Positions 16,376 to 42,209 of a DNA stretch of 64,000 nt are shown here, in pieces (within the stretch, counting starts at the first letter, position 1; each line of letters opens with the position of its first letter). Location of the stretch: the NCBI GenBank assembly GCA_015039315.1, contig WIDE01000040.1, positions 11,108-75,107 of the forward strand, read 5' to 3'. Origin of the DNA: Clavulina sp. PMI_390 (taxonomy: Eukaryota; Basidiomycota; Agaricomycetes; Cantharellales; Hydnaceae). Position numbers and translations under genes: made by a program. The notes under the pieces were generated by a model. That model searched no databases and was not told the origin of the DNA. It worked only from the letters and a program-made list of their open reading frames with translations.

Positions 16376-17054
16376 TCATTTGCGCTTCCAGTATACTTCG
16401 TCCTGGTTCAAGGAATTGTGGCGAAGTCAGCTCATGCTTATGGGAAATCACTGTAGGAGGTGTCGCATACCTCCTTTGGTCCGTCGCGGCGTCCCCAGTA
16501 CTCCAAGTCCTTAGAAAGGTATTGGACCAAGTCGGCTAGCCGTGCCATGAATTTATGGATCGTACCTCTTTGGGAGCATCACTGCGTTTCCAGTAAACCT
16601 CGTCCTAGTAGATGGGGCAACAAATGTGTAAGAACGAGCCTGAGTACACGAAGGATGTCATATCCACCTCTTTTGGCCCATCGGCGCGCTTCCAATATAC
16701 TGCATCCTAAGTTGACGCGTCAATAAAGGGCAGGTAGTAAAACCGCAGAATGCCATAGCGGTATATCGAATATCGTACCTCCTTGGGTGATTCAGCGCGC
16801 TTCCAATAAACCATGTCCTAAGAACGAATATGTGAAGTGAAAGAAATCAGCAGCTGCGGCGAAAGACGCATACCTCCTTGGGCGCTTCACGGCGACCCCA
16901 ATATTCCAGGTCCTATATCCAAGTGACATTTTCATCAGAAAGAGTAGGTGGGTGAGCCCAGCAGTCTCCATACTTCACCGGGTTTGGCCCCGTCAACGGG
17001 AGCGCTGAAAGCTACAGCCGCAAAGGCGAGAAAGAGAACAGAGAGGACCTTCAT
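16376..17054 (-). CDS. Secreted repeat peptide precursor A (PKEDxxYW repeats, one per exon)
   Basis: A 100-aa protein from seven exons: 16974-17054, 16874-16912, 16779-16817, 16668-16706, 16566-16604, 16471-16509, 16376-16402. All introns are phase 0 with GT-AG ends. Exon 1 encodes a signal peptide (MKVLSVLFLAFAAVAFSA) and DGAKPGE. Exons 2-6 are each exactly 39 nt and encode one 13-residue unit D-x-x-Y-W-(K/G)-R-x-x-x-P-K-E. Exon 7 ends the array with DEVYWKRK and a stop. Cleavage at the KR/RR pairs would free 10-12-residue peptides with invariant P-K-E-D-x-x-Y-W, for example EAPKEDMVYW and ADGPKEDEVYW. This matches the logic of Kex2-processed fungal peptide precursors. The product, and whether Tyr/Trp are cross-linked by the nearby UstYa-like proteins, is inference. 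I recognise no named homologue. Confidence 0.85.
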
Positions 17055-18338
17055 GACGAGGTTACGACACGGAATTAAGGCTGCAAGGTGAGCATAGCCT
17101 AGGTCTCGAGAGCCTTTTAACTCTCTGGTGTTCGTATGGGGCCCATCGATGACCAGCCACACACGCCACATGCTGATCTTCGAAGGATCAAGGATATAAG
17201 AACACAGATTTGCCTTGCGCGGATATCGATTTTATGTTCTCAGAAGTGGTTTTAGGAAGCTCATTACGTGGGCATCTGGGATGAATCATCATATGGCCGT
17301 CGATGGGGAGGAGAGCCTTGTGGAGGAGCTATTCCTGGCTGCAACTCATCTAACATGCTGTATCGATTCAACAAGAAATGGATTGTGGTGGAGGATCAGG
17401 CATTTTTATGCATCCGGATGGATAGCATCCATGAACTGTCAATGAGCACCGCACCATATGGTCATGCCCCACTATGCACTATGGTTCGTCGCGGATGCAC
17501 ATGCGGCAGGAAGTGAGAGGGAACACATACATCATCTGATTAAATTCAACATAGATATTTTTTTTCTCAGCTAGCACAGCTCTCGTAGCGTGTCGATTAC
17601 TATGCACATGCTGAGTCAAACTCCGGACCGAGCTTCAACGTTACTGGCGACAGGAGAAGTGTTTGGTAGGTGAAGGTGACCCATATAGGATGATAAAAAA
17701 TAGGTGATTATTCAAGAGGAGGTGGTGGAGCATGTTAGTCCTAGTTCCTAAGACTTCCAGGCGGAGGGTCCTGAAGACGAAGCCAAGGCTGCCGAGATGA
17801 CACCTCCACCAGAAAGCAAGGACTTCATCAAACCATCGTGCGCGTGGATGGACTCACATAGAAATTCCGTTTCTCCGAGACGGAGATCTTTTTAGCCCTC
17901 TCCGTGCCATGAAAACATTCATATCCCGAGGACGATGATTGGCACACGACTGTTTCGATTTGTTTGGTCACGACAGCATTAGTTCCCACGACCGTGCAAT
18001 GCATCGCTGGCCACCGACGTCCTCAACGCCGGTCCAGTGCGGAGCTCCGGCTTGCCTACCCATCGTCTCTGGGGGTCACAAATAATCAGAACAAATTGCG
18101 CCCAATGATGTGTTTCAGACCCGTTTCCATATATGGCCCGATCATCATGGTGATGTTGCGTGATGGTGGTGATTGTTGTGTTCTTGGCATCGCAACTGAG
18201 GCTCTCACACTCGTCGTATTTTTGGCCGCCGTCCCGTCCTTGAAGGACTCTCTTATCTTTCCTTTTCTTTTCAGCTGTGCTGCTTTTTTTTCTCCTTTGC
18301 TTCTTCCTCTGAGCTGGACTCATAAGCCTATCGTTTCA
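17055..18338. other. Spacer between precursor A and the LPMO-like gene
   Basis: Contains the promoter of precursor A and of the LPMO-like gene. Long open frames overlap on both strands near 17.96-18.39 kb but show no splice logic or family resemblance. No further repeat exon was found. Confidence 0.4.
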
Positions 18339-19664
18339 TCATGGTTTCATCGTCATCGCTCTTCTATCTGTCTGCTGCACTGCTGTCATTGATCCCCGCT
18401 GTCCACGGCCACGCAAGAGTGACGAGCCCTCCCATTCGTACTGTGAGTCCCAGCTCCCTCGTCTATGCTCTATCTACCTGAGGCTGACGTCGATCTCCAC
18501 CCTTTAGCCTGGTAACGCTTTCCAGTGAGATAGCAGCCTTTTTGCTCGTCTCGACAACACACGCTAATCACCTCCCTCTTCCTGCTCCACCATGTCAGGC
18601 AACAATGTGGAACCCCTTCCTTCCAATCAGTGACCAGTGATCCTACTGGGCACATCGAGGAACAGGAGCCATTCAATGCTGGCTGTCAGCCAACGCTCTG
18701 CCGAGGCATGGTATGTACCCAGTGTTCTATTAGGCATCATGGGAAAGTTCTGAAGTCTCTTTTATGCAGCTGTTCCAAGATCAACCCGCGAGCAACGTCC
18801 AGCAAGTCATTCCAGGTCAGGCAATGAACATGGGGGTTGATTGCACAATCCCGCACGGCGGTCCAGCGAACGTTTCCTTGGTTGACACCACTGTGGGTGG
18901 AGCTGGTGTAATCTTGGGCTCTTTCCTCGCCACATTCAGCGATTTTTGCCCTACGTCCGGTGGGACCCCTGCTGATCGTGAGTGCTTTCCTGGTCGAAGC
19001 CTGGTTCGCTCTGTCTCATCCCTAATGTATCCACCACGCTGTAGAGTCAAATATCCAATTCAACCTTCCCTCCGCCAATGTTATTGGATCGAAGTGCCAG
19101 AATGCAGGGGACTGCGTTGTCCAGGTGGGCATCGTATATTGTTACAATCGTCTTGTTTTTGTTCTCACTATTCTTCTCGTCTATAGCTCTTCTGGGCGAC
19201 CCCAGACTTTTCGCAAAACTACTACTACTGGTAAGTTTATTCCTGCTTCCGAGCAGTCGTCCCTCGTTGCTGACGATTTCGGTCCCATCTCTAGTGTCGA
19301 TGTCAAGGTCAATGCCGTACAAGCCTCCACAACCACTTCCTCGACCACTTCGTCGTCAGCAACACCTGTGGCCCCGTCGACGACAGTCCCAGCGGTCGTT
19401 CAAGCGGAAAACACCTCAACTTCAGAATCTTTCAGTAGCACACCCATCATCACGCCTACGCTCGTCGCTCCGACCGTGGTAACCACTCCTTCGTCCATGG
19501 TCACCATCACGACCACTAGCCCCACTCCTAGCACGACATCGAACAAGTCGACTGGGGCGCTGAACGGCGGGGCCTTCGCGACCGCAACAACGGGCGGCGC
19601 TTCTGGGCTTCTGGCGATTGCTTTAGTTGTGGGTCTCGCGCAAGTTTACGGACAGGTGTTGTAG
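18339..19664 (+). CDS. Secreted LPMO-like protein with C-terminal GPI-type tail
   Basis: The signal peptide (about 23 residues, ending PAVHG) is followed directly by HARVTSPPIRTPGNAFQ. A histidine at the mature N-terminus is the hallmark of copper-binding lytic polysaccharide monooxygenases and related X325-type proteins. The core (about 200 residues over several exons) has many cysteines, among them QQCGTPSF, NAGCQPTLC, VDCTIPHGG, FSDFCP, SKCQNAGDCVVQLFW and NYYYCVDV, which suggests a disulfide-rich beta-sandwich. A Ser/Thr-rich linker of about 100 residues follows, then a hydrophobic C-terminus after ATATTGGASG, consistent with a GPI signal. The exact CAZy family is uncertain (chitin-binding type-4/AA-like or BIM1-like). 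It lies inside the peptide cluster but may be unrelated to it. Confidence 0.65.
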
Positions 19665-19941
19665 TGGTTTGGGAAGTTAGACGAAGCCTTGGACAATACA
19701 GTGTAATTTGTAATTGCGACATATAATGGACGATGCTCCTAACTGCAAAGCTGTGCTATGTGAAGACGGAAGGTCCCTCGTGGATCTGAAGCTTCATGTC
19801 GCTGAGGGATCTCTTGCGCAATGTTTTCCCTCGCTCCTATATTTCCTGATCCTCACAAATGCTTAATCAGTATGCACTGAATTTTCTATGAAAGCTACAG
19901 TATGTGGCGTTCCACTTACAAGAAGAATCCTTGTGTTGCTT

Positions 19942-20257
19942 CTAACAGCCCATGCATTCCCGCTTCTTCGTATCCGCAAAGGTCTTAGCGTCACGGTCGT
20001 AAAGAATGGCGTTTGGGTTCTGGAGAAGATTCGTGACTCAGTATAGAGGAGAGGGTCAGGAATATTTGAGACTCACTGTTGCCTCAACCCGCTCGATGAT
20101 TTTCAGCTAGGTGTACGGACGCTCGGATTATGAGACGACGACCAGTGAGTCTACCGGGGGAATGGCGACTTACAGATCTTGGTTCTGAGGCAATAGGGGC
20201 AGCGACGACCACCCCAGCAAAAGCGATCGCGACAGCGGAGAGGAATGCGACCTTCAT
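19942..20257 (-). CDS. Secreted peptide precursor B (single NPNAILYDR core)
   Basis: A 63-aa protein from three exons: 20174-20257, 20077-20106, 19942-20019, phase-0 introns. Exon 1 is a signal peptide (MKVAFLSAVAIAFAGVVVAA) plus PIASEPRS. Exon 2 encodes LKIIERVEAT, in the place where the sister precursors have a short xNKRAEEI exon. Exon 3 begins NPNAILYDRDAK, the same core as in precursors C-E but with YY changed to YD, then DTKKR and the tail ECMGC. The dibasic KKR would release the core. It differs from the sisters in lacking KR in exon 2. The ending CMGC resembles a CaaX box, though on a secreted protein this would be odd. It is a divergent or decaying member of the family. Confidence 0.75.
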
Positions 20258-21603
20258 CCTACTCAAGTGTCCTAAGAGGTAGAAGATAGAAGGGTACTGG
20301 AGCGAAAGGATGCATCCCTATCCGCCGTTTAACTACTTATTTGTCCTTCTGATCGCAACACTTAGGAGAAGGAACAATAGTGTTCATGTGGCGCCGCGTA
20401 CTTGACTGGATAGAGCTATTGTCTTAGGATCGCATCGCTTTCGATCTCATATATATCCTATACAGCAGCATCGAGATATGGTATCTGTATATTTATTCTG
20501 TGGGAAATCCACGAAATTGTAGCAACCTGTTAGCCGAGTCGTTTTCTTCAGGTCTGTCGAGGTAATTGCGGGTGTTTTAGCTAGATACCACAGGAAGCAA
20601 AAGGTCCGGTGAAGGTCTATTTAGCGCCGATGGATCCTCCACGTGTGCTCAATGATAGAAATCCTCAGGAGTTGGGGGAAGAACCGATGTTCATCCTCCT
20701 GTCCGTGATGAAGCGTAGTGATGTATCAATTGGTTGAGGCTCATAGTTCAATCACTTCCATTTAATTGAGGTAGAAGCATAGCTCTCAATGTCTCCAGGG
20801 TGATCTGCTAAAGGCGCTGGCACTGCTTTCAGGAAGTCTTGGCGCTCGGTGCAAGGCCCCCGATACTGAATTCTGAGAGTCGGCGGCTATCCGTTAGTCT
20901 CAGCCGCTCGTGCCCCTATACAATCTCACGCGCAACAAAAGGATTATACACATCCTACAGCTTAGCAGCTGATACCATTTAAGCGAAGATACCTGAATCA
21001 ATCAGTGAACGTATCTTGCGTTAGGGTACTCTTGCTGCGCAGTGTTGATTCGAGTCCTAAAGAATTAATCTCCATCCTAATCCTAATCCTCAAGGGAAAG
21101 GTTTCAGAGTCATATTTAAACTCAATATTAGCTTCTTCTGGTACCGTGCTGTACACTAAGATGTTCGCAATAACTCGTCGTGTCTCCGGTAGAATTATTA
21201 GGTTCTCTCCAAATTCACCTTACTCATGAAGGAATTTGTTTAATTAAATGAAATCGTCCCGGAAACCTCGACCAGAAGCGAGTATCGAAGGAACTGTCGG
21301 CTCGGTTGCTAGACTCCTTCGTTTGTAGTATCCTGGCTCTATTCAGGGTGCACACAATCTACGGAAATATACGGGATGCCAAATATGCTTGGTAAACTGT
21401 CTGCCACTGCTTGACGTTTTTGCACATGTCGCATGGTATTCATCCTATATCGCTCGCGGGTATCATTAATCTAATGAGAAGTTGGCATATTGATTGGATT
21501 GACATCTGATTTTTTTTTACATAAATAGGAGAGTTTCAAAATATACACGGAGGGCCTAGAGGCCTTGAAACTTATCGGCGGGGACGTAAGAAGCTTCAGA
21601 CAG
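20258..21603. other. Spacer between precursors B and C
   Basis: AT-rich sequence with no supported gene. A TATA-like AAATAAG on the minus strand at about 20336-20342 is about 80 nt upstream of precursor B. Confidence 0.4.
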
Positions 21604-21981
21604 CTAACCACGGTAATAGACGGTAAGATTAGGGTTCTACGAAGGCTCGATAAGTAGATCTCCTAGAAATTATCAGTAGCGATGACATACCACCTCTTCG
21701 GCGCGCTTCTCTTTAGCCTCGGGATCTTTGTCGTCGCGGTAGTAGAGAACGATGTTGGGGAGCTAGACCATAGAGTCCATATGAGCATTATGGTGAGATA
21801 AAACTCTTCACGACTGACGACCTCTTCCTCTCGCTTTTTAATCTGGACATTGAAGAGTTGAGATACGTGGTTTGATAGAAAAGAAGCACAATGAACTGAC
21901 CAATCCGGTTGGCTGGGCAAAAGGGAGCGCAAGAGCCATGTTGACGACAGCGAAGACAATAGTAAAAAAAGCGAGCTTCAT
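21604..21981 (-). CDS. Secreted peptide precursor C (two NPN/LPN-YYR cores)
   Basis: A 69-aa protein from four exons: 21901-21981, 21819-21842, 21691-21762, 21604-21636, all phase 0. Exon 1 is the signal peptide MKLAFFTIVFAVVNMALA followed by LPFAQPTGL. Exon 2 (24 nt) is IKKREEEV. Exon 3 (72 nt) begins LPNIVLYYRDDKD and ends KEKRAEEV. The last exon is NPNLTVYYRG and stop. Cleavage at KKR and EKR would give cores starting EEEVLPNIVLYYR and AEEVNPNLTVYYRG. Exon layout, 8-residue spacer exon and core match precursors D and E, so the family is clear although no named homologue is known to me. A TATA box lies 58 nt upstream of the ATG. Confidence 0.85.
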
Positions 21982-23492
21982 TGGGACGAGATGTTTGGAG
22001 ATTCAAGATGGGGTGGAGGAATAGACACGAAATGGAGGTTTTTATACTCCCATCGTTTAATTTTCCCTCCCCTTCGCTGTGTGATAGGGCAGAAGCATGC
22101 TTAGTGGTCATATGGCATGCATTCGGCCAGGATATGTATGAAATGGCACGTCACATTTCGTTTTCTATTCTATGGTCTTCCATATCCAACATTTACATGT
22201 CTTTCTCAGGGAACAAAACTGAAGGTTGTTTCCCCTCAGTCTCTCTAAAAGTCATCAGTCGTGCTTTAACACTCCTGAACTGGACTGAATTTAGCTTTGG
22301 CATTTGGCAGGTCCTGCGAGGCCAGAGGGGGTATGGTGGTGAGCCTCCGGCCCGCGGGGATCTGATCGAGATGGTGGTTGTTGAATGGGGCGGCATATTT
22401 AGATAGCTGGAGTGTCGTCATATGGAGGTTGAATATACCATTTGTAGCTTCTTCAAATGGTGAGCTGCACAAAGAGGATTTGGCGCCCCGGAGCGTAGGC
22501 ACCGAACCCTTTTGACAGCCTCCCTATGCTAGTCTCTTCTCTAGTTTCCTGAATCGTATCCGCTCACTATATTCTCATTATATATATTACCGGCCCGGCG
22601 TGTGAGTGTGGTCTAATGTGCGGAGGTTGCTCTTAGAAACGCTGTTTTTTCAGCAGCTTGGACTCTTTCAAACTAGGTCTGCAAGCTGCCACATATTTCT
22701 TCCTTTTATTTTTTAAGGACGTGCGTTAATGCCATTTACTAGATGATATTTCTACACTATATTAGTCACTCGTCGACTCAGCCATGTTAGGGAATATTTG
22801 ATGTTCATCCAGATTCCTACATAATTCTAGAAATGTGTATGATGCTGATTTTCACGAACCCCTCTCGGATATTACATGTAGCTGTACCATGAGGAGATCT
22901 ACGGCTGCCGACTCCCGTCATTTTTTCCCGTGCTTTGGGGGCTGAGCGCTCACTGCTGACAATATATTCCAGTCTTTACTTTATCATTCCCGTCTTCTTG
23001 GAGGTAAGCAACATCTTCATAAATTCTCGAATATATACGCCAGAGATAGCATGCATCCAACTAAAATAGGTCGCACCGCCCTTGATGAGCTTCGGAGTTT
23101 TTATTCATCGCGGTAGCTAGGAGCTAGTTTCTTCATTCGATACGTCATACTACCGCCTGGCGTTTCAATCATGACATTAGGTGACAGTCAAATATCATCA
23201 AACTGTGAGTCGGCTTTGGTAGCAGCTAAATCATTCATATCATCTTACGGGACGGCAGAGATGCAGGCCTAATTTTTTTTCAAAAGCAGGTTTGAACACG
23301 GTGTAAGTTCTCCTCGCTCTTTGTTTTATCAGACAGGTAAAATGGAAGTACAGAAGCTAGTTTAGGTTTATTTACTTGGTTGGCGATTCAAAATCCTATT
23401 TAGTGCCTACAGGAGCATTCAATGTGGTCGGCAGGGGGTCAGTGGGGATAAACCTGATGGGAACTGGGACTTCCTCATTCGTTATTGAATCT
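21982..23492. other. Spacer between precursors C and D
   Basis: No intact gene. Around 23101-23130 the plus strand has TCATCGCGGTAG followed by AGGAGCTAG, resembling the complementary pattern of a YYRDD core exon; it may be a decayed repeat exon. Confidence 0.35.
22039..22046 (-). promoter_or_regulatory. TATA box of precursor C
   Basis: TATAAAAA on the minus strand, 58 nt upstream of the precursor C start codon. Precursors D and E have ATAAATA at nearly the same distance. Confidence 0.55.
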
Positions 23493-23886
23493 CTAAGCCA
23501 CTTTAGGATACATCTCGTCCCGACGATAGTATAAAACGATGTTAGAGTTCTACAAGATACGATAAGTCGGTACCAGGCAGGTGGAAAGGGTTATGACACA
23601 CGATCTCTTCCGCACGCTTCTCCTCCAAATCCTTATCATCGCGGTAGTAGACAACGATATTGGGGTTCTAGACAGGCATTGTGAGACTGATTGGTACTTT
23701 CATGGGCGTCAGGGACTTACAATTTCCTCCACGCGTTTGTTCATCTTGTTCGACGTGATCAAATGGTGGTATTACCCCTAATAAAGGGCGAAGCTAACTC
23801 ACCATCCTAGACTCTTGACTAGTAGGCAGAGCCAAAACTGCACTGGTGGCAGCAGCCAGGTAGAGCACGACGAAAGTGACCTTCAT
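23493..23886 (-). CDS. Secreted peptide precursor D (two NPN/NSN-YYR cores)
   Basis: A 76-aa protein from four exons: 23803-23886, 23721-23744, 23602-23667, 23493-23549, phase-0 GT-AG introns. Exon 1 gives the signal peptide MKVTFVVLYLAAATSAVLA and LPTSQESRM. Exon 2 (24 nt) is MNKRVEEI. Exon 3 (66 nt) begins NPNIVVYYRDDKDLEEKR and ends AEEI. The last exon begins NSNIVLYYRRDEM and ends without another KR. Dibasic cleavage would release a core starting VEEINPNIVVYYR and a final one starting AEEINSNIVLYYRR. The Tyr-Tyr-Arg centre is the same as in C and E. It should enter the secretory pathway; function unknown, RiPP precursor inferred from the nearby UstYa-like genes. Confidence 0.86.
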
Positions 23887-26902: not shown

Positions 26903-27922
26903 ATGTCCGCAGCCTATCAAGCTCTCGAGTCCGAAGTCAAAGCCCTGGATGAGGATGTCGACGACGTACCTTCATTCCCTCCAACCCGGCTTGTCCCTAC
27001 CAGTACCAAACGGCAAAGGCATATTCGGATGATCACTATTGCTTCTTCTGCTGTCAATCTGCTAGCCCTCATCTATCTTGCCTCGCTCTGGTTCAGCCAA
27101 TCCTCATATGTTCGATGGCGTGGAGCAAGGCCAGTTTACAGTAGGTCTTATGATGAAAATATCTAGCCTATCCTTTTATGACTTATAACTCATGTCGTTT
27201 GAAAGCGCCCATTACCGAGCCTCCTCATAAGCTCATTGTCCCAGCCGGCCTTCGTGGCAAGACGCCATATGACGGGCCTCCTTCGGATGAAGTGGACAAA
27301 CTCTGGAACGATCTTTACGCGCCGTGTAATACACCCGACTCATACTACTCTGCTTGTATCACTAACGTGGTGATCTTGTAGACTTGCTCACAGGAATCAC
27401 TGCCCACGAAGCGACCCAGTTAGCCAATGCCACGGTGCCTTCGGAAGGTACTGAGGTATATGAGACCCAGATTGAAGTGTTTCACTACCTCCACTGCCTC
27501 GTAAGCAGACCTTACTGTGCGTTTTCTCGTCTTCTCATCCGATTTTCTTTTCACCTCTACAGAATTTCCTCCGCCAACTGGCTTGGCCTGAGCGCTACAG
27601 CGCCGCTGCTTCAAGTCGGTATGCTATCAGTCGCGGGGTCGTTTTCAGCCATGCCGATCACTGCGTCAATGCCATCCGTGAGGCGCTCATGTGCAATGCT
27701 CCTATTGCTGCTTTGCCATGGCAGTTCAACCCCCACAAGAACTTCTCCGAAATTCGCTTCGATGTCACCCAGACGTGCTCTGACTTCTCAGCAGTCCAAG
27801 AGTCGGCCAAAAAACGCCTTGTCCCCGGGAAAATATCGGTTGATTCGCTGAACAAGACTACCCCGCCGGAGTTCGTGCCAACTCATGCGCAATTGGTGGC
27901 GGCAGGATGGGAAGATTCATAA
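26903..27922 (+). CDS. UstYa-like (DUF3328) protein 1
   Basis: A 278-aa member of the UstYa family, membrane-anchored proteins that carry out oxidative cyclisation or hydroxylation in fungal RiPP and cyclopeptide pathways. Exons: 26903-27140, 27206-27325, 27382-27500, 27563-27922. A cytosolic N-terminus of about 50 residues precedes one membrane helix (IASSAVNLLALIYLASLWF). The extracytosolic part has GPPSDEVDKLWNDLY and the two family HxxHC motifs, HYLHC in VFHYLHCLNFLRQ and HADHC in HADHCVNAIREALMC, then FDVTQTCSDF. All metal-binding-type residues are present. It is the first of two tandem genes, 333 bp apart, between the precursors and the transporters. The proposed substrate, Tyr/Trp of the precursor cores, is inference from position. 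Confidence 0.9.
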
Positions 27923-28255: not shown

Positions 28256-29395
28256 ATGACCATTTTCTCATCCTTCAGGGGAGCAATCGAATCACCTTCT
28301 AATCCTCTATCCACGCCGTTGCTCGACGACGAGGATGAGGAGAACAAGCGATCTGGAGCGGTGTCACCAACCGATGAGCCTCACGATGTTCTGACGTTTT
28401 CGCGACGTGCCGAGATGTACATGTTCGCATCACTGGCTGTAAACTTGATTCTATTGGTGGCTGCCGTTTACGCTGGGGTTCAGCGGTCCCTCATGGTGCG
28501 GTGGGAGGGTGCATCTCAAGTGTATAGTGAGTATATACCCCCGTTCTGTTCTGTCCCATACCATAACTTATCTCTCCACGTCGAATGCGATTTATGCAGC
28601 TCCGGTCCTAGATAGTATAACCCACACTCGTGCTGTATTTACACCGTTATTGGCGAAGACGAAATGGCACGGACCGCCGAACGATGCAGTGGATAGGGCA
28701 TGGGAAGATTTGTATGATAGTGAGTGGTCACCCCGCTCTAATAGCAAGAGCTTGCGCACACTGATACGATGACCTCGTTATTCTATCCGTCGCATCTCAG
28801 CTGGTATTTCCGCTATCTCGGGAGCCCAGGCTTCGCTACTACTCAATAAAACAACTCCAATCGCCGGGCTGGAAGATAAATACATCGTATCTCTGGTGAG
28901 CTACTCTTGCGGAATGAGGATGATACGTACTTATCCCCTTTATTAGGATGTGTTTCATCAGCTGCATTGCTTAGTGAGCCAAGATGTCGTATGTGGGGTA
29001 CTTGGCTCACGATCCTTAACAGAATACGCTCCGGAAATTTCAGCATCCAAAGAGATATCCCTACGTCGTCCAACAACGATACAGAGAAGACAAAGGGTGT
29101 GTATCATGCCTTTGGACTAGACCATTCCCCCGATCTGATGTGTCGTTCTAGGTACGGCACGATTGATCACATTGACCACTGCATACAGGCAATCCGGGAG
29201 ACATTAATGTGTCATGCTGATCGGACGCTGGATCCTTACGTGAAGCCTAGCGATCGAAATCGCACTCAGGTCTCATTTGAGAGCTATCATACGTGTCGGG
29301 ACTTTGGAGCTATCCAGCAGTGGGCTCGGGATAATCAGTCACCGTTCAAGTTCAGCGACACTGTTTTGGCTCATGGATCTCTAGTGCCTGCATAG
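28256..29395 (+). CDS. UstYa-like (DUF3328) protein 2
   Basis: The second UstYa family protein, 276 aa. Exons: 28256-28526, 28600-28719, 28801-28895, 28947-28973, 29023-29096, 29152-29395; the second exon is 120 nt in both UstYa-like genes. It has an N-terminal acidic cytosolic segment and a membrane helix (YMFASLAVNLILLVAAVYA), then VRWEGASQVY, GPPNDAVDRAWEDLYD, and both HxxHC motifs: HQLHC in DVFHQLHCLNTLRKF and HIDHC in HIDHCIQAIRETLMCHAD. SYHTCRDF follows near the end. An in-frame upstream ATG at 28235 is possible; 28256 is chosen to match the usual N-terminus. Ustiloxin biosynthesis also uses two such proteins (UstYa, UstYb). Whether these two act as a pair here is unproven. Confidence 0.9.
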
Positions 29396-30316: not shown

Positions 30317-32391
30317 ATGGGATTCTCGGTCACAGATAGAGATAACGCATACTTACTAGCCCTCTTCTTGTCCATATTCCTCGTCGGCTGGGATGAGTAC
30401 GTATCTGACCATCACAAGGCCTTTAGATGACTGAAAGCTTGTCCCTATAGTGGCACGACTGGTCCATTGATCCCGCGGATGCAAGAATCCTACGGGGTAT
30501 TTTGAATAATTGCCTCCACGATAGTATATGAACATTTATGACATTAGGTTGGATACACGGTTATCTCAATCATTTTTATCTGCAAGTGTGCGGTCAGTGA
30601 AGAGACATTTTCTGAATTAAATAAAAATTTACGCGATCATCTCTATCGATCTAGGGTGCCTTCACGGCAGCGCTTGTTAATATGTATATATCAGACAAGT
30701 TCGGTTACGCCAAGGTGAGTACCCCAATGTCCACAGATTGAGAATTAACAAAACATATCTCCTTCAATAAGGCGGCTACTGCGGGAGCCATCATACAACT
30801 CATCGCATTCACAATCCAAGCACCACGCCCTCCGTTCCCTGTGCTTGCTGTTGCCTATTACATCGACGGTTTCGGCGGTTCGCTTCAAGATGCACAGGCA
30901 AATGCCTTACTCACGATGTTTCCAACGAATCAACACGCAAAAATGATGATCGGGCACGGCATGTATGGTCTTGGGGCTCTTATCTCTCCCCTAATTTCTA
31001 CCCAATTTGCCCAGAAGAAGCACTGGGCATTTATGTATCTCACATCTCTCAGCCTCGCGGCACTAACAACTGTGGTTCTCTTGGCGGTCTTCCGACTCCG
31101 TTCTCAAGCCTGTGAGCTCTCTGTTTCTTGTTTCCCTGTGAAAGGGCGTCGTTCTGACGTGGCCGCCGAATAGCGATATTGGAAGACCTTGCAGCGCGAA
31201 AGAAAGCTGGTCAACCTGACGGGGAGAAACCAGCAGCCACTGAGGAAGAAGTCGAATATCATGGGTGGGATAAGTACTATGCCCTCATGCGAATGCCAGC
31301 GGTCCACCTCGCAGCACTCTTCATCTTTACTTACGTTGGTGCCGAGGTGTGTTTGGTCTGTTGCGGTCGACGGTGGCACCGTTCTCTGATCATTGCTTCG
31401 AAAGGTATCCATTGGGGCGTGGTCTGTTACCTATCTCCTCAGGGAACGGGGAGGTGGTCCCTCTACAGGATACGTGTCGAGTGGGTTTTTTGGAGGTCAG
31501 TCTCATATTGTCTGTGTACCTCCAACCTAATTCTTACAGCCCTGTACTATCCAGGTCTGACTGTCGGTCGTTTCGCCCTTATTGGGGTGAACCAACTGGT
31601 AAGATAACTTCAAAAGCAAAAGCTGTGTTCTTGCTGACAAACATTCCTCAACTTAGCTTGGAGAGCGTCGCGTAATCTTCTACTACATGGCAATATGTAT
31701 TGGGCAAGTGTTACTATTATGCGGAGCTTTATTTGAAGACATTCATAACTAGCTCATGTTTCACGCGCACATCAGACTTCAGCTGTCTGTCTGGCTCGCG
31801 AAGTCGCTAGTGGGAAATGCTGTTGCCATCTCATTTGTCGGGTTCTTCCTCGGACCTATATATCCTCAGCTAGTACTTGTGCTGGCAGACTTTGTTCCCC
31901 CAAGGTATGTCTTACCCGAACGTCGTTCTCTTTATCTAACTTGTTGATTATTGCTGCAGCTTTATGGGAGGAGCAGTTGGCTGGATCACCTGGTACGTCG
32001 GCATATCCGTTGTTGACTACGCCCATGGGGATAGTACTGACTACCTATGGATATCAGTCTTGGGGCTACTGGGGCGGCAGTGTTCCCATTTATCGCAGGC
32101 GCCATGGCGTCAAAATTCGGGGTCTGGGTGATGCAGCCTCTGTAGGTCGCCTTCAAATCGATGGACTCCATTCTTTGGCGCTGATTAATCATTAACTTGT
32201 TTAGTATTGTGGCGCTGATGGGGGCCATGATGATTTTGTGGGTACTTACATTACTCACGCAGGTAAAACGCAACTCGGTGACCCCACCTGAGTCCATAGA
32301 AGAAGGCTATAGGGAGGGGTCACTTGAGGACCGTGCCTCTATCGAGAAAAAAGTTGAGAAGGATACTGGATCAATGATCGCAACTGCTTAA
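30317..32391 (+). CDS. MFS transporter 1 of a tandem array
   Basis: Major facilitator superfamily membrane transporter, about 12 helices, many exons. It begins MGFSVTDRDNAYLLALFLS and has VGWDDGTTGPLIPRMQESYG after splicing, then FICKCAGAFTAALVNMYISDKFGYAK, YYIDGFGGSLQDAQANALL, the central cytosolic loop EDLAARKKAGQPDGEK, SVTYLLRERGGGPSTGYVS, SFVGFFLGPIYPQL and AMASKFGVWVMQPL. The family looks like fungal BSC6/FucP-type MFS, an assignment from general resemblance. The intron after MAICIG uses a GC donor (GCAAGT), whereas the same intron in the three sister genes uses GT. Transport of the peptide product is inferred only from its position beside the UstYa-like genes. Confidence 0.88.
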
Positions 32392-32784: not shown

Positions 32785-32984
32785 TTTGTGAACAAGAAAA
32801 TGCATCGAATCCAGCCTTCCGAGTTGCCGGTTCTCTCAGTCGTTTTTGACAATCAATATCTCACTAGTCACCTGACGAATATTGAGGGTTCTGATTCCGA
32901 CTTTTCTCCGCTCATTGAGGATAAGAGCGAGCCACCTCTTGCCTTTGCTCTCAAGACCTTCACACATAGTGAACATTCTGTAAT
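32785..32984 (+). promoter_or_regulatory. Conserved upstream block of transporter 2
   Basis: Contains GTGAACAAGAAAATGCATCG, CCAGCCTTCCGAGTTGCCGG and TTTTCTCCGCTCA, matching the block upstream of transporter 3 and more weakly transporter 1. Confidence 0.55.
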
Positions 32985-35060
32985 ATGAAATTCCCAAAGG
33001 TAGAGAGAGACGATGCCTACTTTCTTGCTCTTTTATTGTCTATTTTCTTGGTTGGTTGGGATGAGTAGGTGACCGACTTCACCAAATTTTGGTGTAACTA
33101 AAAATGTCTCTTACATAGTGGTACAGCTGGCCCTTTGACTCCGAGCATGCAAGAGTCGTATGGGGTACGATATCAAGTGTTATGCATGTAACTAAAACCA
33201 ACATTTGTCCTTTAGATTGGATACACTGTCGTATCGATTATCTTTATCTGCAAGAGTGCTGTCAGTCGATCAAATCTGCTGTATTAACTCGAGGTCTTAC
33301 TTGATATCTTACCGACACAGGGCGCCGTCACCGCGGCGCTTGTAAATATGTATATATCAGACAAGTTTGGTTATGCCAAGGTACGTTCCCCGACTCTGCT
33401 CACACATAGCAGATTGAGGATCAGCATGATTTGTTTTCTCCAAAAGGCTGCTACAGCGGGGGCTGTTATACAGCTCATCGCATTTACTATTCAAGCACCA
33501 CGCCCGCCGTTCCCTGTGCTTGCTGTAGGCTACTACATTGATGGTTTTGGTGGCGCACTTCAAGATGCACAAGCTAATACTTTACTCACAATGTTTCCAA
33601 CGAATCAACATACCAAGATGATGGTCGGCCATGGCATGTACGGTCTTGGGGCTCTTGTGTCTCCTCTCATCTCCACCCAGTTCGCTCAGAAGAAACACTG
33701 GTCATTCATGTATCTCACGTCCCTTGGACTTGCGGGGCTAGCGGCAGCGGTTCTTCTGGCCGTGTTCCAACTCCGATCTCAAGCCTGTACGTTATCTCCC
33801 TATAATGAGAGTCCTTCTCATACCGTTACCAAACAGCGATACTCGAAGACTTCGAGGCCCGAAAGAACGCGGATCAGCTTGGCGGGGACCCGAAGCCAGT
33901 GGATGCCGAAGAAGAAGTAGAATACCATGGATGGGATAAATACTACGCTCTCATGCGAATGCCAGCGGTCCATTTGGCAGCCTTGTTCATCTTCACCTAT
34001 GTCGGCGCTGGGGTACGGCTAGCCCCCGCGACGCTACCTCTCATGCCGCTGACAAAAACATCGGCTCTATAGGTATCTCTTGGCTCGTGGTCCGTTACCT
34101 ATCTCCTCAGGGAGCGTGGGGGTGGCCCTTCGACAGGGTATGTGTCCAGCGGATTTTATGGAGGTAGGTCGTATATACTCTTCCCACCTCCGGAAGAGTC
34201 CTGTCTCATATCTTTTTTGTTAGGTTTGACCCTAGGCCGTTTTGCTCTCATTAGGTTCAATCGAATGGTAAGATCGAGTCCAAATGATCAGTACTGCGAG
34301 TTCTGAGACTTTTGAAAATAGCTCGGGGAGCGCCGTGTAATTTTCTATTACATGGCTATATGCATCGGGTACCTTTTTTCTCCCAGATGCACTAGGTTAC
34401 TCCAAAGGCACCATAACTTACTGACCCAGTTATATTGCCATGATATAGACTACAGCTGTCAGTTTGGTTCACAAAGTCGCTTGTGGGGAATGCTATTGCG
34501 ATATCATTTGTGGGCTTCTTCCTCGGTCCAATGTATCCTCAGCTAGTCCTCGTCTTAGCAAAACTTGTTCCGCCGAGGTACGTTGCATGAGTTGCTATGG
34601 AGTAGAAATCTAGCGCGCTGATAATTCTGGCAGCTTTATCGGAGGGGCGGTAGGATGGATTAGCTGGTGAGTCCATGTTTTGGCTCCTTTGTGGCTAGAA
34701 AACCCATTACAGTAAGGATTTATTAGCCTTGGTGCTACTGGATCCGCCGTGTTTCCGTTTATTGCAGGTGCAATGGCATCAAAATTTGGAGTTTGGGTCC
34801 TACAGCCACTGTGAGTTCATATCATACGACGAATCCTCCGACTTTATGGTAATCTTATGCTTCTGTCTTGCAGTGTTGTAGCACTTATGGGTGCCATGAT
34901 GGTTTTTTGGGCACTCACACTTCTCATGCCGGCAAAACGCAATTCGATTACCCGACCTGGGGTAGCGGATAAACACGACGGTAGCCCTTCATCGGTTCAT
35001 CGTGGATCCATCGAGAAGATAGAAGGACAGGATGAAGTACTTGTCACCTCCGCCGTGTGA
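32985..35060 (+). CDS. MFS transporter 2 of a tandem array
   Basis: Close paralogue of transporter 1, same exon plan. The start is ATG 32985-32987 (MKFPKVERDDAYFLALLLS) and the N-terminus differs from the MxFS of the others. Conserved blocks are VGWDDGTAGPLTPSMQESYG, LVNMYISDKFGYAK, YYIDGFGGALQDAQANTLL, FPTNQHTKMMVGHGMYGLG, DAEEEVEYHGWDKYYALMRM, SVTYLLRERGGGPSTGYVSSGFYGG and AMASKFGVWVLQPL. TAG PLTPSM replaces the PLIPRM of the sisters, and GRFALIRFNRM replaces GRFALIGVNQL, so substrate contacts may differ. The intron after FGYAK has a normal GT donor. Membrane protein, probably plasma membrane. Confidence 0.88.
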
Positions 35061-36744
35061 GTCGGAATACCAGGGGGCCATACGCCCCTATGACGCGCAC
35101 AACATACGACCATAGCCAAGTTTTATAAAGATTTACTTCTTCGAACTATATTTACCATTTACTAGTCTGATTTATCGCTCGCTCCGAATTCAAATGTTCG
35201 TCCAAGTACCACAGGATATACTTGCGGCAACTTCGAAGTCAAATACCACCAGGTATTATCTTCCTCTTTAGCTCTTTCCCTAACTCATATAGTTCCATTT
35301 TTCTGAGTCGTCTGGCCCAGTATGCTTTCAGGTAGTGCGGATACGACCGCGATTTTATGCTTTTCACATCTTCCTGGTTTTAGGCTTCTTAACATAAACC
35401 ACCCTTATGATGCTCAAAAAAGAGAGGTATATACGTAGAACCCAGCCAGTGAAGCGGTAGTTGGCTATACAGCTCGGCAAAAACGTCATGTAGGTTCCTT
35501 GTATCAGCAATAGACCCGTTGAATGTGATGTAGATACCGATTGCTATTGCTGCTAGAACTTTGTGAAGAGAGGTTCTACACCCGTATCAACGAGACCGCG
35601 GCCCAAAATAAGCTCGGTTTCTAGGATCTTTACGAGAACAGCACGATCCAACCGTCGATGTTGGGTTTGTGGATGAGCGAAGCTGAAACAATTCCGAACA
35701 GGCCGAGGAGGAGCCGTAACATATTACTTATTGGCTGTGGCTTCAGACCTGCTATCTGAGGGATGTCGAGACCGAAAAGTTCGGCTCGGTGTCAAACTGC
35801 TTCTCGCTGAACCTGACGCTTAGACGAAGTGCCTCTGTTAGATTGCGAGAGACGATTCTGCTACCAGTATCCAGCTTTTATTCCTGCCGTCTTTGTGGTG
35901 GAATTAAGTTCATTGCCTAATATGAGGGCACAGGATTTGCTTGTGCGCGTGTCACGTGACAGCCAAGAACCTGGCGCTTGCGCTTGCTAATCCGCATCCC
36001 TGCTGTATGAGCAAGAAATTAGGGTATGTGAATGCTCCACTACCCCACTAGCTACCGAGGACGGCTCGTGTAATCTAACGACTCGGTGTGGTAGCATCCT
36101 TGGTCTGCTCTACCGATCAGTTTGGAGACCGAGAGCGTGCTTACCACAGGGCTCAATCCCATTTTCGTGAGGTTGACGGAGGTTTTCCTTCTAAGCATAA
36201 ATCATAAAGCATGATCAGCCACATTCGTGCCATGAGGACTGGCCTCGATTCCAGCCCACTGTTCTGAACCCAACAGCAGCATCTCATGTGGGTCTACGAT
36301 CGAGAATCCATGCGTCACTGCGCAGTGTTAGCAATAAGTGTACAATCCTCAGTAAACTCCCTCCTCATTCACTGGAGACCTCCTTTTTTACCTCTAGGCT
36401 CCAACTTAGGGCCTTGCTCAAAGTGTTATAAGCCAGATCAGATATGCCCCGGCCGCTCTACTCTCCTCGTGAGGTCCCTAGCTTGCCGCACTCCCGAGCA
36501 TATGTGACTCCTTCATGTAGCTCGCTCCCTCTCCAAGGTGATATGTCGCTCTCGATAGTGTGACAAACACTACTTTTGGCATGGATGGACTCTTGGCGGC
36601 CGTCGGCCTTCGGCCTTGTTGCCCCAGCTTGATCCGCGGCGGCTTGACCACCATTAGCTATCCCTGAGGATACTCGGATAGCTGGGCCTCCACACATTTG
36701 AGTGCGGAAATCTTTCAAAGGTGACCCACGGTCATATCTCGGAT
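35061..36744. other. Large spacer between transporters 2 and 3 with a possible decayed gene
   Basis: On the minus strand from about 35760 to 35400 protein-like text survives in pieces (LRLLLGLFGIVSASLIHKP, then ILETELILGRGLVDTG, then AAIAIGIYITFNGSIADTRN) but is broken by stops and shifts. It may be a dead gene or one with introns I could not place. The rest is blank. Confidence 0.3.
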
Positions 36745-36956
36745 AAACCCTTTGAAACAAGAAAACGCGTCGAACCCAGCCTTCCGACTTGCCAGTTTCT
36801 TCAGCAATCTTGGACGATCAGTTCTCTCCCAGGTCACCTGTCGTCTCGTGCGAAGATCGATCCCGAACTTTCTCCGCTCAGACAGGATAAGAGTCATCCG
36901 TCCTTTGGCTTCCAGCTTTCTCGTAAAGCCCTCACACCTTGCGAACACTGTTGGGT
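36745..36956 (+). promoter_or_regulatory. Conserved upstream block of transporter 3
   Basis: GAAACAAGAAAACGCGTCGA, CCAGCCTTCCGACTTGCCAG and CAGGTCACCTGTC match the blocks upstream of transporters 1 and 2. Confidence 0.55.
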
Positions 36957-39032
36957 ATGATGTTCTCAGCGCTAGAGAAAGATAACGCCTACTTGCTTGC
37001 CCTTTTCTTGTCCATTTTTATGGTCGGTTGGGATGAGTGGGTATCTTAATGCACAAAACGACGGCTTGTTGTATCTCTGAAGCTATCTCGCGTAGCGGCA
37101 CGGCTGGTCCATTGATACCGCGCATGCAAGATTCATATGGGGTAGGCTACATGTTCGCCCTCGAGTATGGTTCATGATGTTTCGTGGCCCCAGGTTGGAT
37201 ACACTGTCGTATCTCTCATTTTCATCTGTAAATGTGCTGTGAGATATTGGCAGTTACCGCTTTGATTCTTTGATTCAGCACCTTACGCAGCATCTTTATC
37301 ACAGGGCGGATTCACCGCTGCACTCGTGAATATGCATATATCAGACAAATTTGGTTACGCCAAGGCACGCTCACATTCACTCCTGACTCTTAGTTTGTCT
37401 AATAACAAGAGGTTTCCTTCTACAAGGCGGCTACGGCGGGGGCCATCATACAGCTCATCGCATTCACAATTCAAGCGCCACGTCCTCCGTTTCCTGTACT
37501 CGCTATTGCATACTACATTGATGGCTTCGGTGGCGCACTTCAAGACGCCCAAGCCAATGCCCTACTCACCATGTTTCCGACCCATCAGCATGCAAAAATG
37601 ATGATGGGCCATGGCATGTATGGTGCCGGGGCTTTCCTTGCCCCTCTCATATCAACACAGTTCGCCCAGAAGCAGCACTGGACTTTCATGTATCTCACCT
37701 CCTTGGGTCTTGCGGTGCTGACTACTGTGGTTCTACTATCTGTGTTCCGTCTACGTACTCAAGCCTGTGAGTTTTCTCTCCGCCACAAGCTAGAACATTA
37801 CTCAACTTGCAGCTCTACAGCAATCCTTGAAGACCTTGCGGCTCGGAAGCCTGCTGGTCCGCCCGACGAGAGTAAGCAGACAGCCGCCAATGAGGAAATC
37901 GAATATCAAGGATGGGAAAAGTACTACGCTCTAATGCGAATGCCAGTGGTCCATCTGGCGGCGCTTTTCGTCTTTATCTATGTTGGCGTCGAGGTAACGA
38001 TATCCAAACCCAGCATGACTCGTGGAACCTAACTGTCTGCCTCGCATTCTCAAAGATATCCCTTGGTGCTTGGTCCGTAACCTACATTCTCCGAGAGCGT
38101 GGAGGTGGACCCTCCACAGGATACGTGTCCAGTGGATTCTTCGGAGGTTAGTCTGATAAGCTTGCCCGATCCCTAATATTCGCTAATGATCCCTTGTGAG
38201 TAAGGCTTAACTTTAGGCAGATTCGCGCTTATTGGGGTCAACCAATTGGTAAATTCGACCAATTCATATTTACATGCATAGCTAAAGTTTATCCGTATAG
38301 CTTGGAGAGCGTCGGGTGATATTTTACTACATTACCCTATGTATTGGGTGAGCATTCCTTCTCTTCCGACTCATGGTTTACCAAATCAAATTGCTCATAA
38401 ATCACGGCTACGGTATTATTTAGTCTTCAGCTATCTGTTTGGCTCGCAAAGTCACTGGTCGGGAATGCTGTAGCTATATCATTCGTCGGGTTCTTCCTTG
38501 GACCGATGTATCCCCAACTAATGCTCGTATTGGCACACTTTGTTCCGCAAAGGTATGCATCCCAAGCCGCACTTAGTTGTCAGCCTGGACCAATCGTGCA
38601 CTCGATTACTATAGCTTCATCGGAGGAGCGGTAGGCTGGATTAGCTGGTGCGTTGAGATTCATGTTAGAATATTCCATCAATATGATGCTTATTTTTTGG
38701 ATTATAGTCTGGGAGCTACTGGATCAGCTGTGTTTCCGTTCGTTGTAGGTGCGATGGCATCAAAATTTGGGGTATGGGTGCTACAACCACTGTAAGCTCC
38801 AGTTTTGTGAGATAAACGTCTGGTTATGCCTGATCTTACACTTGCTTGATGCAGTGTCGTGGCGTTAATGGGTGTTATGATGGTTTCATGGGCGCTTATA
38901 CTGCTGACTCAGGTGAAGCGTCACCCAGTAACCCAGCCCGGAGCCACGGAGGAAATTGATCGAAAAGGCTCAACCGAGGAGCGTGGCTCTGTTGATGAGA
39001 AGGACAAGTCATCAATGATCGCAACCGTGTGA
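36957..39032 (+). CDS. MFS transporter 3 of a tandem array
   Basis: Third paralogue with the same exon plan. It begins MMFSALEKDNAYLLALFLS (the ATG at 36960 is an equal alternative) and ends SSMIATV, like transporter 1. Blocks: VGWDDGTAGPLIPRMQDSYG, GGFTAALVNMHISDKFGYAK, APRPPFPVLAIAYYIDGFGG, FPTHQHAKMMMGHGMYGAG, SVTYILRERGGGPSTGYVS, FVGFFLGPMYPQL and AMASKFGVWVLQPL. The intron after FGYAK starts with GC (GCACGC), a GC-AG intron, where transporters 1 and 2 use GT. Reading frame is intact. Substrate unknown. Confidence 0.88.
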
Positions 39033-39989
39033 AAGCGAACAACCAGCCCATGAAGCACCACCATAACGACAATTCATTACCTTGATATGTTGAAGCTTTT
39101 GTACGTGTTTGACGATATAGGGTGTGATGGCACTCATGCTTTGATGTATGGCATCCATAATTTCATTCCCAAATTAATTTACTTCCCAAGTCACCTTTCC
39201 GTACTCTTGCTCGATGGATCAATCCTCTTAAACGTGAGGCTTTCTCTTTAAAAGTCCTTCAAGCGAGTTCCGAAGCTGCCAAAGGATGACAAGAACCTTG
39301 GAGGGTACTCCCTACTCAATGGCCTTCTAGCACGGACCACATATCTTGACCGCAGCAATGCACCTTCAATATGGAAGTTCTGGAAATGTCGCCACGCAAA
39401 TGTTCCACTGATTATGAGTGGAGGACCAAAATACTGCAGCTATAGCTATGTTGGTGGAGGAGGCCTCATATGGGTAGTAAATTTGTATGGAGCATGCTTT
39501 ACAATTCGGAACCCGGCTAGTCCCGTGTGGAGAGCCTCGAGGCGCCCAATCCAAAGCTCTGCAAACATCCCTCCCTCGGAGTCCATCCCCAAAAAAGGAC
39601 TTCAGTGACATTCGGAGCTCATTCAGAAGGCTCACAATTTGACACTTTGCTACATCTATATACCCTGTAATCAACATCATTCATTGCATCGAGCCCTTTT
39701 ATCGCCCGCCCCAGCATTCAAACGTCACCTCTGTTTTTGGCAGTATTTCCTTTTCCTTCTACTTGGCGACTCAAATATCATTTGGCGTGGCTTAAAGGCC
39801 AGGATCTACTTTTTTAATGGCCCTTGACCAGCTCCTGGGGCCTCACGTGGGTCACCGGCAAAAATCGCCATTGGCATACAAACACAGTCCTAAACATACA
39901 ACGTGTTTCGATGTGGAAAAAAAACCGACACGTCACGTCCACGTAGCGTGGGCATGTTTGGGCGACCTCTCGGCCCGCCGATCCCTTCA
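39033..39989. other. Spacer between transporters 3 and 4
   Basis: An open minus-strand frame at 39366-39680 shows no family, repeat or splice support and is treated as chance. No other feature. Confidence 0.4.
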
Positions 39990-40143
39990 GCGGGCCTCGG
40001 AAGATCAGTTTCTGCCCGCCCCAACCTGATACAATTCGTGCGAAGATTGACTCACTCATCTCTCCTCCAAGCGGATAAGAGCTAACGATCTTTTATCCTC
40101 TACCTCTGTCTTGTGGCCCCCGTGCTCCAAGATACCCACCACT
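39990..40143 (+). promoter_or_regulatory. Weakly conserved upstream block of transporter 4
   Basis: CTCGGAAGATCAGTTTCTGCC, TTCGTGCGAAGATTGA and AGCGGATAAGAGC partly match the block upstream of transporter 3. Confidence 0.4.
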
Positions 40144-42209
40144 ATGCCATTCTCCGTCTCGGACAGAGACAACGCCTACCTCCTTGCCCTTTACTTGTCC
40201 ATTTTCCTGGTTGGTTGGGATGAGTTAGTATTCAAACGTGCAAGATCACCCAAATTTGGTTTACAACTGAACACCTCCTGTGTATAGTGGTTCAGCTGGC
40301 CCTTTGATCCCACGAATGCAAGAGTCCTATGGGGTAAGCCAGGCGCCGAAGTTCCCGACGACTATGCCAATATCTTCGACTTAGGTCGGCTACACCGTCG
40401 TATCTATTATCTTTATCTGCAAGTGCGCGGTTAGTCAACAATTTCTTTTCTAACTTCTCTCAAATTCTGATGTGGGATCCATCGCAATCCAGGGTGCTTT
40501 CACCGCTGCGCTTGTGAATATGCACATCTCTGACAAGTTCGGTTACGCCAAGGCACGTCCATCTCCATTCGAAACCATCACTTTGTCCATTGACGAGAAG
40601 CTTGTCTCCGCCAGGCGGCCACCTCAGGCGCCATTATACAAATCATCGCATTTACGATCCAAGCACCACGCCCTCCATTTCCCGTGCTCGCCATCGCCTA
40701 CTACATTGATGGTTTCGGCGGCGCTCTTCAAGATGCCCAAGCTAATGCCCTTCTCACGATGTTTCCAACAAATCAGCACGCAAAAATGATGGTTGGCCAT
40801 GGCATGTATGGTCTCGGAGCTCTTATCTCACCTCTAATTTCCACACAATTTGCGCAGAAACAGCGTTGGGCCTTTATGTACCTCACTTCGCTTGGACTCG
40901 CAGTCATCACTATCGTCGTTCTTCTTGCCGTCTTTAGGCTTCGCTCCCAGGCTTGTAAGTTGTTTATCACTCTCGCGAGGGAGCTGCCTTCATATGTTCG
41001 GCCCGCATAGCAATCCTTGAAGACCTTGCGGCCCGAAAGGCCGGAGGTCACCCTGATGGAGAGACACCACCAAAAGTCGAGGAACAAATTCAATACCAGG
41101 GATGGGACAAATATTATGCTCTGATGCGGATGCCAGCGGTCCATTTGGCAGCGCTGTTCATCTTTACCTACGTCGGCGCCGAGGTACAAATAGCCTCAAT
41201 GAAGATTTCTTGTGACCCTAATTGCTCAGCCTTTGTCTCTATAGGTATGCGTTGGCGCGTGGTCCGTGACATATCTCCTTAGAGAACGGGGAGGTGGTGC
41301 TTCCTCAGGATATGTGTCCAGCGGGTTCTTCGGAGGTTAGCCTGCCCATCTAGCATCTTTTCACGAGCCCTGACAACTCCGTATCGCATAGGTCTCACTC
41401 TTGGTCGGTTCGCCCTCATTGGTGTCAGTCAGCTGGTGAGTCTGAGTTCGACCCCATCATCACCGGTCGAAATAACACTGCCGAACGTAGCTTGGAGAGC
41501 GTCGTGTGATTTTCTACTACATCGCTATCTGTATTGGGTAACTGATTTCTTCCTGAACGACTATGTCAACGAGCAGTCATTTACTCACACTATTACATGC
41601 TGCGCTATAGGCTTCAACTTTCAGTTTGGCTAGCAAACTCGTTAATTGGGAATGCTGTCGCCATCTCATTTGTCGGATTCTTCCTCGGGCCGATATATCC
41701 TCAGCTAGTGCTACTATTGGCGCACTTTGTTCCACCCAGGTGAGTCTTAGGCTCTGTAGCACGTTTGAACTTTCTTAACAGGGACGCCGATGAATGTAAT
41801 AGTTTTATGGGAGGAGCGGTTGGCTGGATCACATGGTATGTGGCACATCTTGATTTTTAGCTATGGCTATGATGCTGATTATTTATCGATATCAGCCTTG
41901 GGGCTACGGGAGCAGCTGTTTTCCCGTTTATAGCAGGTGCTATGGCATCGAAATTCGGGGTCTGGGTTATGCAGCCCCTGTGAGTTCCTGCCAAAGCAAT
42001 AGGTTCTTCTACCTGATACTGAGATTTCATTCCGTTCTTGTAGTATCGTTGCGCTGATGGGAGCCATGATAGTGCTGTGGGCCCTTACGCTGCTCACACA
42101 GTTGAAACCTCAGTCGACGGCTCATCCCGGAACTGCGGAAGCTGCCCAGGGCCACATGGCTATTGAAAAGAAAGATGAGGAAGCTGGATCACCCTGCCCA
42201 ACTGCGTAA
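40144..42209 (+). CDS. MFS transporter 4 of a tandem array
   Basis: Fourth paralogue. It begins MPFSVSDRDNAYLLALYLS, then VGWDDGSAGPLIPRMQESYG, GAFTAALVNMHISDKFGYAK, AATSGAIIQIIAFTIQAPRP, YYIDGFGGALQDAQANALL, the central loop EDLAARKAGGHPDGE, SVTYLLRERGGGASSGYVS, GRFALIGVSQLLGERRVIF, SFVGFFLGPIYPQL and AMASKFGVWVMQPL, with a hydrophilic tail ending PCPTA. The intron after FGYAK again starts with GC (GCACGT), as in transporter 3. Intact. It is the last member of the array before unrelated metabolic genes, so the putative cluster probably ends here. Confidence 0.88.

Follow-up and report, generated by a model that had tools for sequence, protein, structure and literature searches.

A candidate dikaritin-type peptide locus with split-exon precursors in the agaricomycete Clavulina sp. 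PMI_390

Introduction

Do mushrooms make ribosomal peptides that are cross-linked by copper enzymes? The question is raised by a 64,000-nucleotide stretch of DNA (the window; contig C237, positions 11108-75107) from the 39.4 Mb, 301-contig assembly of Clavulina sp. PMI_390, which the NCBI taxonomy places in the Basidiomycota, Agaricomycetes, Cantharellales, Hydnaceae. Within it five genes for short repeat precursors lie close to two genes for UstYa-family (DUF3328) proteins and four for transporters of the major facilitator superfamily (MFS). This gene set had been proposed in an initial annotation made from the letters of the sequence, and all of it was recovered when the genes were modelled again. 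Dikaritins, the ribosomally synthesised and post-translationally modified peptides (RiPPs) with which such genes are associated, are placed in the ascomycetes (PMC9233826, PMC12048977); here and throughout, statements on published work refer to the accessible parts of the papers cited. We consider, with a probability of roughly three in four, that the window holds an agaricomycete RiPP locus of the dikaritin type, in which precursors would be released by a Kex2-type protease, oxidised by UstYa proteins and exported.

The precursors and the UstYa pair

The five precursor genes were modelled by hand, with a public annotation seen for P4 only. P1 (16376..17054, minus strand; seven exons, 100 aa) contains six YW-type repeats of the form PKEDxxYW[K/G]R, including DLEYWGRR, DMVYWKR, DAVYWKR and DEVYWKR, with PKED cores. 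Written with semicolons for introns, the model reads MKVLSVLFLAFAAVAFSAPVDGAKPGE; DLEYWGRREAPKE; DMVYWKRAESPKE; DAVYWKRADGPKE; DEVYWKRSDAPKE; DLEYWGRRDGPKE; DEVYWKRK. Its five internal exons, the repeat exons, are all 39 nt long, each preceded by AG and followed by GT, and the last exon is of 27 nt. P4 (25189..25748, minus strand; five exons, 108 aa; DL93DRAFT_2098122 at NCBI) has three NP[D/N]xxxY[Y/W]R repeats and is modelled, in the same notation, as ...VNKRAEEI; NPDIIIYYRDNKSSEGAENKRAEEV; NPNLILYYRTDGEDAMGTEKRDEEI; NPDLILYWRSETQSDQADRRAD. P3 (23493..23886, minus strand; four exons, 76 aa), in which EEI is split by an intron from NPNIVVYYR, and P2b (21604..21981, minus strand; four exons, 69 aa), with KR..EEV repeats and YYR, are shorter forms with two repeats each. 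P4, P3 and P2b share repeats in which EE[I/V] is followed, across an intron, by an NP[N/D]xxxYYR-type sequence with KR sites, the exceptions to NP[N/D] being LPN in the first repeat of P2b and NSN in the last of P3. The precursor-like P2a (19942..20257, minus strand; three exons, 63 aa) has a single degenerate repeat (NPNAILYDR...KKR).

The repeats are bounded by KR, RR or KK, and YW, YY or Y is found in those of all five genes. Each gene also begins with a hydrophobic MK.. exon resembling a signal peptide, as judged by a composition rule for four and by eye for P2a rather than by a dedicated predictor. The description as repeat precursors in the initial annotation therefore fits four of the five, with P2a degenerate. 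When P4 was compared with a large protein set its own annotation was the sole match at E<=1 among 10 candidates, so that the core has no relative outside Clavulina in this one precursor search, which was made with P4 and not with P1.

U1 (26903..27922, plus strand; four exons, 278 aa) carries the motifs HYLHC and HADHC and U2 (28256..29395, plus strand; six exons, 276 aa) the motifs HQLHC and HIDHC. Both belong to PF11807, with E-values of 6.2e-34 and 9.2e-45 and bit scores of 118.2 and 153.6, respectively, against a cut-off of 25, in agreement with the proposal of two UstYa-type proteins with two HxxHC motifs each. The U2 model, built from sequence alone, is 100% identical over 276 aa to the Clavulina sp. 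PMI_390 protein DL93DRAFT_2168257; together with the taxonomy this confirms the basidiomycete origin that had been suspected for the DNA. The histidines and cysteine of the HxxHC motifs, another cysteine and a TC pair are invariant across an 11-row alignment that includes two ascomycete relatives.

In an AlphaFold2 monomer model of U2 (mean pLDDT 66, 13 rows) there is one long N-terminal helix, residues 45-78, and the two HxxHC motifs lie on helices 163-177 and 202-213. This matches the layout of the DUF3328 protein CctR, with its motifs on two helices and one N-terminal helix of membrane type. CctR is a binuclear copper enzyme that uses HxxHC(x)nHxxHC, and AprY and ApnU are likewise dependent on copper and dioxygen (PMC12435403). 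The substrate of CctR, in contrast to the predicted ribosomal precursors of Clavulina, is a non-ribosomal peptide.

Taken together these features suggest a pathway. P1-P4 would enter the secretory route through their signal peptides, and cleavage after KR or RR by a Kex2-type protease would yield several related aromatic peptides from each precursor, predicted to be PKEDxxYW from P1 and EE[I/V]NP[N/D]xxxY[Y/W]R... from P2b to P4. U1 and U2 are predicted to cross the membrane once and to carry a binuclear copper site (HxxHC...HxxHC) on the lumenal side. As a pair, and provided that the genes are expressed, they may oxidise Tyr and Trp side chains, a copper chemistry that would most likely give cross-links, and the modified peptides would then be exported.

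Precursor-UstYa modules across the genome

At least 18 matches to PF11807 were found genome-wide, confined to contigs C237, C198, C2 and C60, and could be spliced into models of 13 genes. Pairs of two different UstYa genes lie side by side in the window, on C198, at three places on C2 (one inverted) and on C60. At six of the six pairs, and hence on all four UstYa contigs, a Kex2-repeat precursor diverges from the pair on the opposite strand, with start-to-start gaps of 1155 bp in the window, 860 bp on C198, 1378, 1133 and 1109 bp on C2 and 1185 bp on C60. The initial annotation had named a lack of synteny between precursors and UstYa-like genes in relatives as a ground for abandoning its reading; within the Clavulina genome itself such synteny holds at every pair found. 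A precursor next to UstYa/DUF3328 genes, the arrangement by which dikaritin-type loci are recognised, is present in the window and at five further pairs.

The precursors of these modules are of two kinds. A repeat scan found contiguous precursors on C2, with APVDEFLDGSYYGTVKR units and, in two copies, DTPPVDTEFTAYGGEKR units, and on C60, with SYYGVAKR units; all 17 matches to these repeat sequences are on C2 or C60. The scan missed the precursor on C198. Of five signal-like starts on the strands examined there, one led to it. It is of the split-exon YYR type, with the three exons MKLSLISGVVLLFASVVSALPTFVDDGVVKRGDESE, ADDWIRYYRERAEKRSPE and EEIDANIGYYRRELKPNEEAL.

The region C2:48000-98000 is an inverted duplication of such modules, with pairs on the plus strand at 52-55 and 61-64 kb. 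Their mirror image, which includes an extra UstYa copy, is on the minus strand at 84-91 kb. A piece of repeat at C2:58064-58225 contains a stop.

UstYa phylogeny

A tree was made of 116 rows, taken from the best 120 of 418 profile hits (7997 candidates scored) and from the hits of a single-sequence search. The ten Clavulina rows used all fall in one 25-row clade (support 100/98), together with nine basidiomycete and six environmental rows; the companions of the Clavulina proteins are from Athelia, Sistotremastrum (four rows), Hydnomerulius and environmental sources. The composition of this clade bears on whether the UstYa genes were recently passed to Clavulina by an ascomycete that carried a dikaritin cluster. 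In the single-sequence search the nearest hits outside Clavulina, barring an unnamed environmental protein, were indeed ascomycete, but agaricomycete homologs are numerous among the best 120 of the 418 profile hits and the Clavulina clade contains no ascomycete row, which makes a recent transfer highly improbable.

Within the clade the grouping of U1 with the 'b' genes of C2 and C60 is weak (81/61) and that of U2 with the 'a' genes has moderate support (82/85), so that every locus seems to hold one member of each of two old UstYa subtypes. The precursor type follows the UstYa branch: split-exon YYR or YW precursors occur with C237 and C198, contiguous SYYG or TAYGG precursors with C2 and C60. 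C198 holds the closest paralogs of U1 and U2, and its split-exon YYR precursor is also the nearest in design.

Split-exon architecture of the precursors

In the window precursors each repeat is a separate phase-0 exon, a structure absent from the initial annotation, whereas in the C2 and C60 precursors the repeats are contiguous within one exon. Across the seven split precursors modelled (five in the window and one each on C198 and C263, the latter described below) 23 of 23 introns are in phase 0 and each of the 16 internal exons has a length divisible by three. The exon joints cut inside the core, between PKE and DxxYW in P1 and between EE[I/V] and NP in the other type.

The repeat exons of P1 are more alike than its introns, with identities of 0.67-0.77 for the exons and 0.56-0.64 for the five of six introns compared, the latter being close to the mean for shuffled sequence (mean 0.55, maximum 0.68). 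Among the three intron pairs of P4 one, at 0.65 identity, exceeds the shuffled maximum of 0.63, so that some likeness between introns may remain there. A search of the 39.4 Mb for the PKED repeat-exon pattern, allowing up to three mismatches, gave five matches, all within P1, and the reversed pattern gave none. The NP[N/D] exon pattern, with up to two mismatches, gave ten matches, seven in the window precursors, two on C263 and one on C297, and none in the control; the lone two-mismatch match at C297:53806-53833 (L045) may be due to chance.

A finding rule, which asks for a signal-like start beginning with MK and, after it, two or more aromatic-dibasic exons that can be spliced, was devised after the genes had been seen. 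Applied to 192 kb it gave six matches among 18 signal-like starts, namely four window precursors and those of C198 and C263, and missed P2a; the reversed control gave no match, from just two starts available.

An alternative reading is a locus in decay, with P2a, perhaps P2b, and the second MFS gene as pseudogenes and little or no product. The one repeat of P2a, with its YDR and KKR, would fit with this, as would the two in-frame stops in the MFS2 model and the confinement of the MFS subfamily to contigs other than the further UstYa contigs, both described below. The frames of P1, P3, P4, U1 and U2 are nonetheless fully open, with GT-AG introns, and the codons for the conserved D, Y, P and K of the five P1 repeat exons vary only synonymously, and we regard decay as very unlikely.

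Since the joints lie inside the core, skipping or duplicating an exon would keep the frame and create a fused core, with its first half from one repeat and its second half from a different one. It is conceivable, though we think it doubtful, that the precursors are exon cassettes that yield combinatorial peptides by splicing; if so, exon skipping or duplication would provide new UstYa substrates in frame.

Linear or modified products

The main counter-reading is that the precursors are ordinary Kex2-processed repeat proteins (KEPs) whose peptides are secreted in linear form, as signals, effectors or pheromone-like molecules, while the UstYa pair has some other substrate and lies beside the precursors incidentally. 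The agaricomycete KEP peptides measured in one study are linear or minimally modified (PMC9769878), and just 103 of 1680 basidiomycete KEPs were counted near DUF3328 genes by Umemura 2020 (PMC7329392), where it is suggested that in basidiomycetes cyclisation might hardly occur or the motif might differ. A split-exon precursor of the NPD/YYR type (L051 4530-4986) is, moreover, found on C263, a contig without a UstYa match. An incidental neighbourhood is harder to reconcile with a divergent precursor adjoining all six UstYa pairs and with a precursor type that tracks the UstYa subtype (C237 and C198 as opposed to C2 and C60). We therefore consider the linear reading unlikely, although it has more in its favour than decay or transfer. 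The C263 precursor may be served in trans by U1 and U2, or may be a relic; the open frames around it appear F-box-like by eye.

Other results also weigh against a dikaritin-type locus. The AlphaFold2 model of U2 is mediocre, and solved-structure and fold searches with U2 gave no significant match. A search for tyrosinase (PF00264) gave five matches, on C113 and at C198:176.7 kb only, and none in the window cluster; an exon search for S41 peptidase gave no match in the genome. A kexin gene was not identified in six-frame searches, in which introns split domains and exons score apart; these returned a subtilisin-like gene and an unrelated match. To these may be added the degenerate P2a and the UstYa copy at C2:84 kb, which lies outside the six pairs.

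The one tyrosinase match on a UstYa contig is an exon at C198:176668-176982, about 50 kb from the UstYa pair there.

Neighbouring genes

The four MFS genes lie downstream of U2 on the plus strand, at 30317..32391 (MFS1), 32985..35060 (MFS2), 36957..39032 (MFS3) and 40144..42209 (MFS4), and are real paralogs modelled with 12-13 exons. The assembled MFS1 matches MFS_1 with an E-value of 4.7e-27, but single exons of all four genes score under the Pfam cut-off (3.8e-8 for MFS2, just under it, 2.2e-4 for MFS3 and 2.2e-6 for MFS4). The MFS2 model is uncertain, with two in-frame stops in a stretch left unspliced, and the gene may or may not be intact. A search with a 64-aa MFS exon gave 13 matches, on C237, C24, C275, C112 and C23, and did not find the subfamily on C2, C60 or C198, so the genes may be mere neighbours. 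The four paralogous transporters of the initial annotation are thus present, with their membership of the cluster not corroborated; they may export the product.

Between P1 and P2a there is a gene for a secreted protein resembling a lytic polysaccharide monooxygenase (LPMO; 18341-19664, plus strand), with an N-terminal His after the signal peptide (HARVTSPPIR...) and a weak match to LPMO_10 (E 0.003, below cut-off). It is possibly a copper-binding neighbour of copper enzymes, but a genome search found only the gene itself (five exon matches, all on C237) and no copy at the other UstYa loci. It was for this reason rejected as a copper helper or cluster member, and its position is probably due to chance.

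Genes for Zn2Cys6 transcription factors (Zn_clus) lie at 16-1383 and 3731-4192 (minus strand), and similar open frames run to about 7.1 kb, with the appearance of a tandem family. This could include a regulator of the cluster.

Discussion

To our knowledge the asperipin-2a cluster contains no tyrosinase, and because none was found in the Clavulina cluster the latter appears closest to asperipin. The two have in common a precursor with a signal peptide, Kex2-bounded repeats with Tyr in the core and an adjoining UstYa/DUF3328 protein, AprY in the case of asperipin. Asperipin has two links through Tyr side chains (PMC9233826). Its cluster is, however, from an ascomycete and has one DUF3328 gene (PMC7329392), while the Clavulina locus has a UstYa pair, five precursors, two core types and one repeat per exon. 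With the ustiloxin and phomopsin clusters it shares a precursor whose repeats have Kex2 sites, a secretory route and the presence of at least two UstYa-family proteins (PMC7329392, PMC9233826). Those clusters require a tyrosinase (PMC7329392) and their cores differ. Ustiloxin-type tyrosinase chemistry was rejected for the Clavulina locus, as no tyrosinase match lies near the cluster, and the statement in the initial annotation that the known clusters combine exactly such genes does not hold for ustiloxin and phomopsin.

The gene combination is not new in kind, given the count of basidiomycete KEPs with DUF3328 neighbours by Umemura 2020. Some of these, such as type S-5 of Sistotremastrum, show the same combination in the same phylum, and Sistotremastrum UstYa proteins share the clade of those of Clavulina. 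The dikaritin-like interpretation of the initial annotation thus keeps its basidiomycete host, precursors and UstYa pair, while its novelty was overstated. Introns in KEP genes are not new as such either, as intron-less KEP sequences amplified from cDNA are mentioned in PMC9769878. The main text of Umemura 2020 (PMC7329392), as far as it was accessible, makes no mention of Clavulina, of introns or of precursors with one repeat per exon, and the word intron does not occur in that of Le Marquer 2019. The one-repeat-per-exon layout was not found in the literature searched, which was open-licence text.

The Clavulina genome brings together six precursor-UstYa modules, in which the precursors are of two architectures and the UstYa subtypes match them. 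If the split-exon models hold in the transcript, precursors with one exon per core could evade repeat finders that look for contiguous frames, and the counts for basidiomycetes may be too low. They would then also be a natural case of a peptide repertoire altered in frame by the gain, loss or skipping of exons. The modules permit a direct test of whether mushrooms make peptides cross-linked by copper enzymes, and of which UstYa protein acts on which core.

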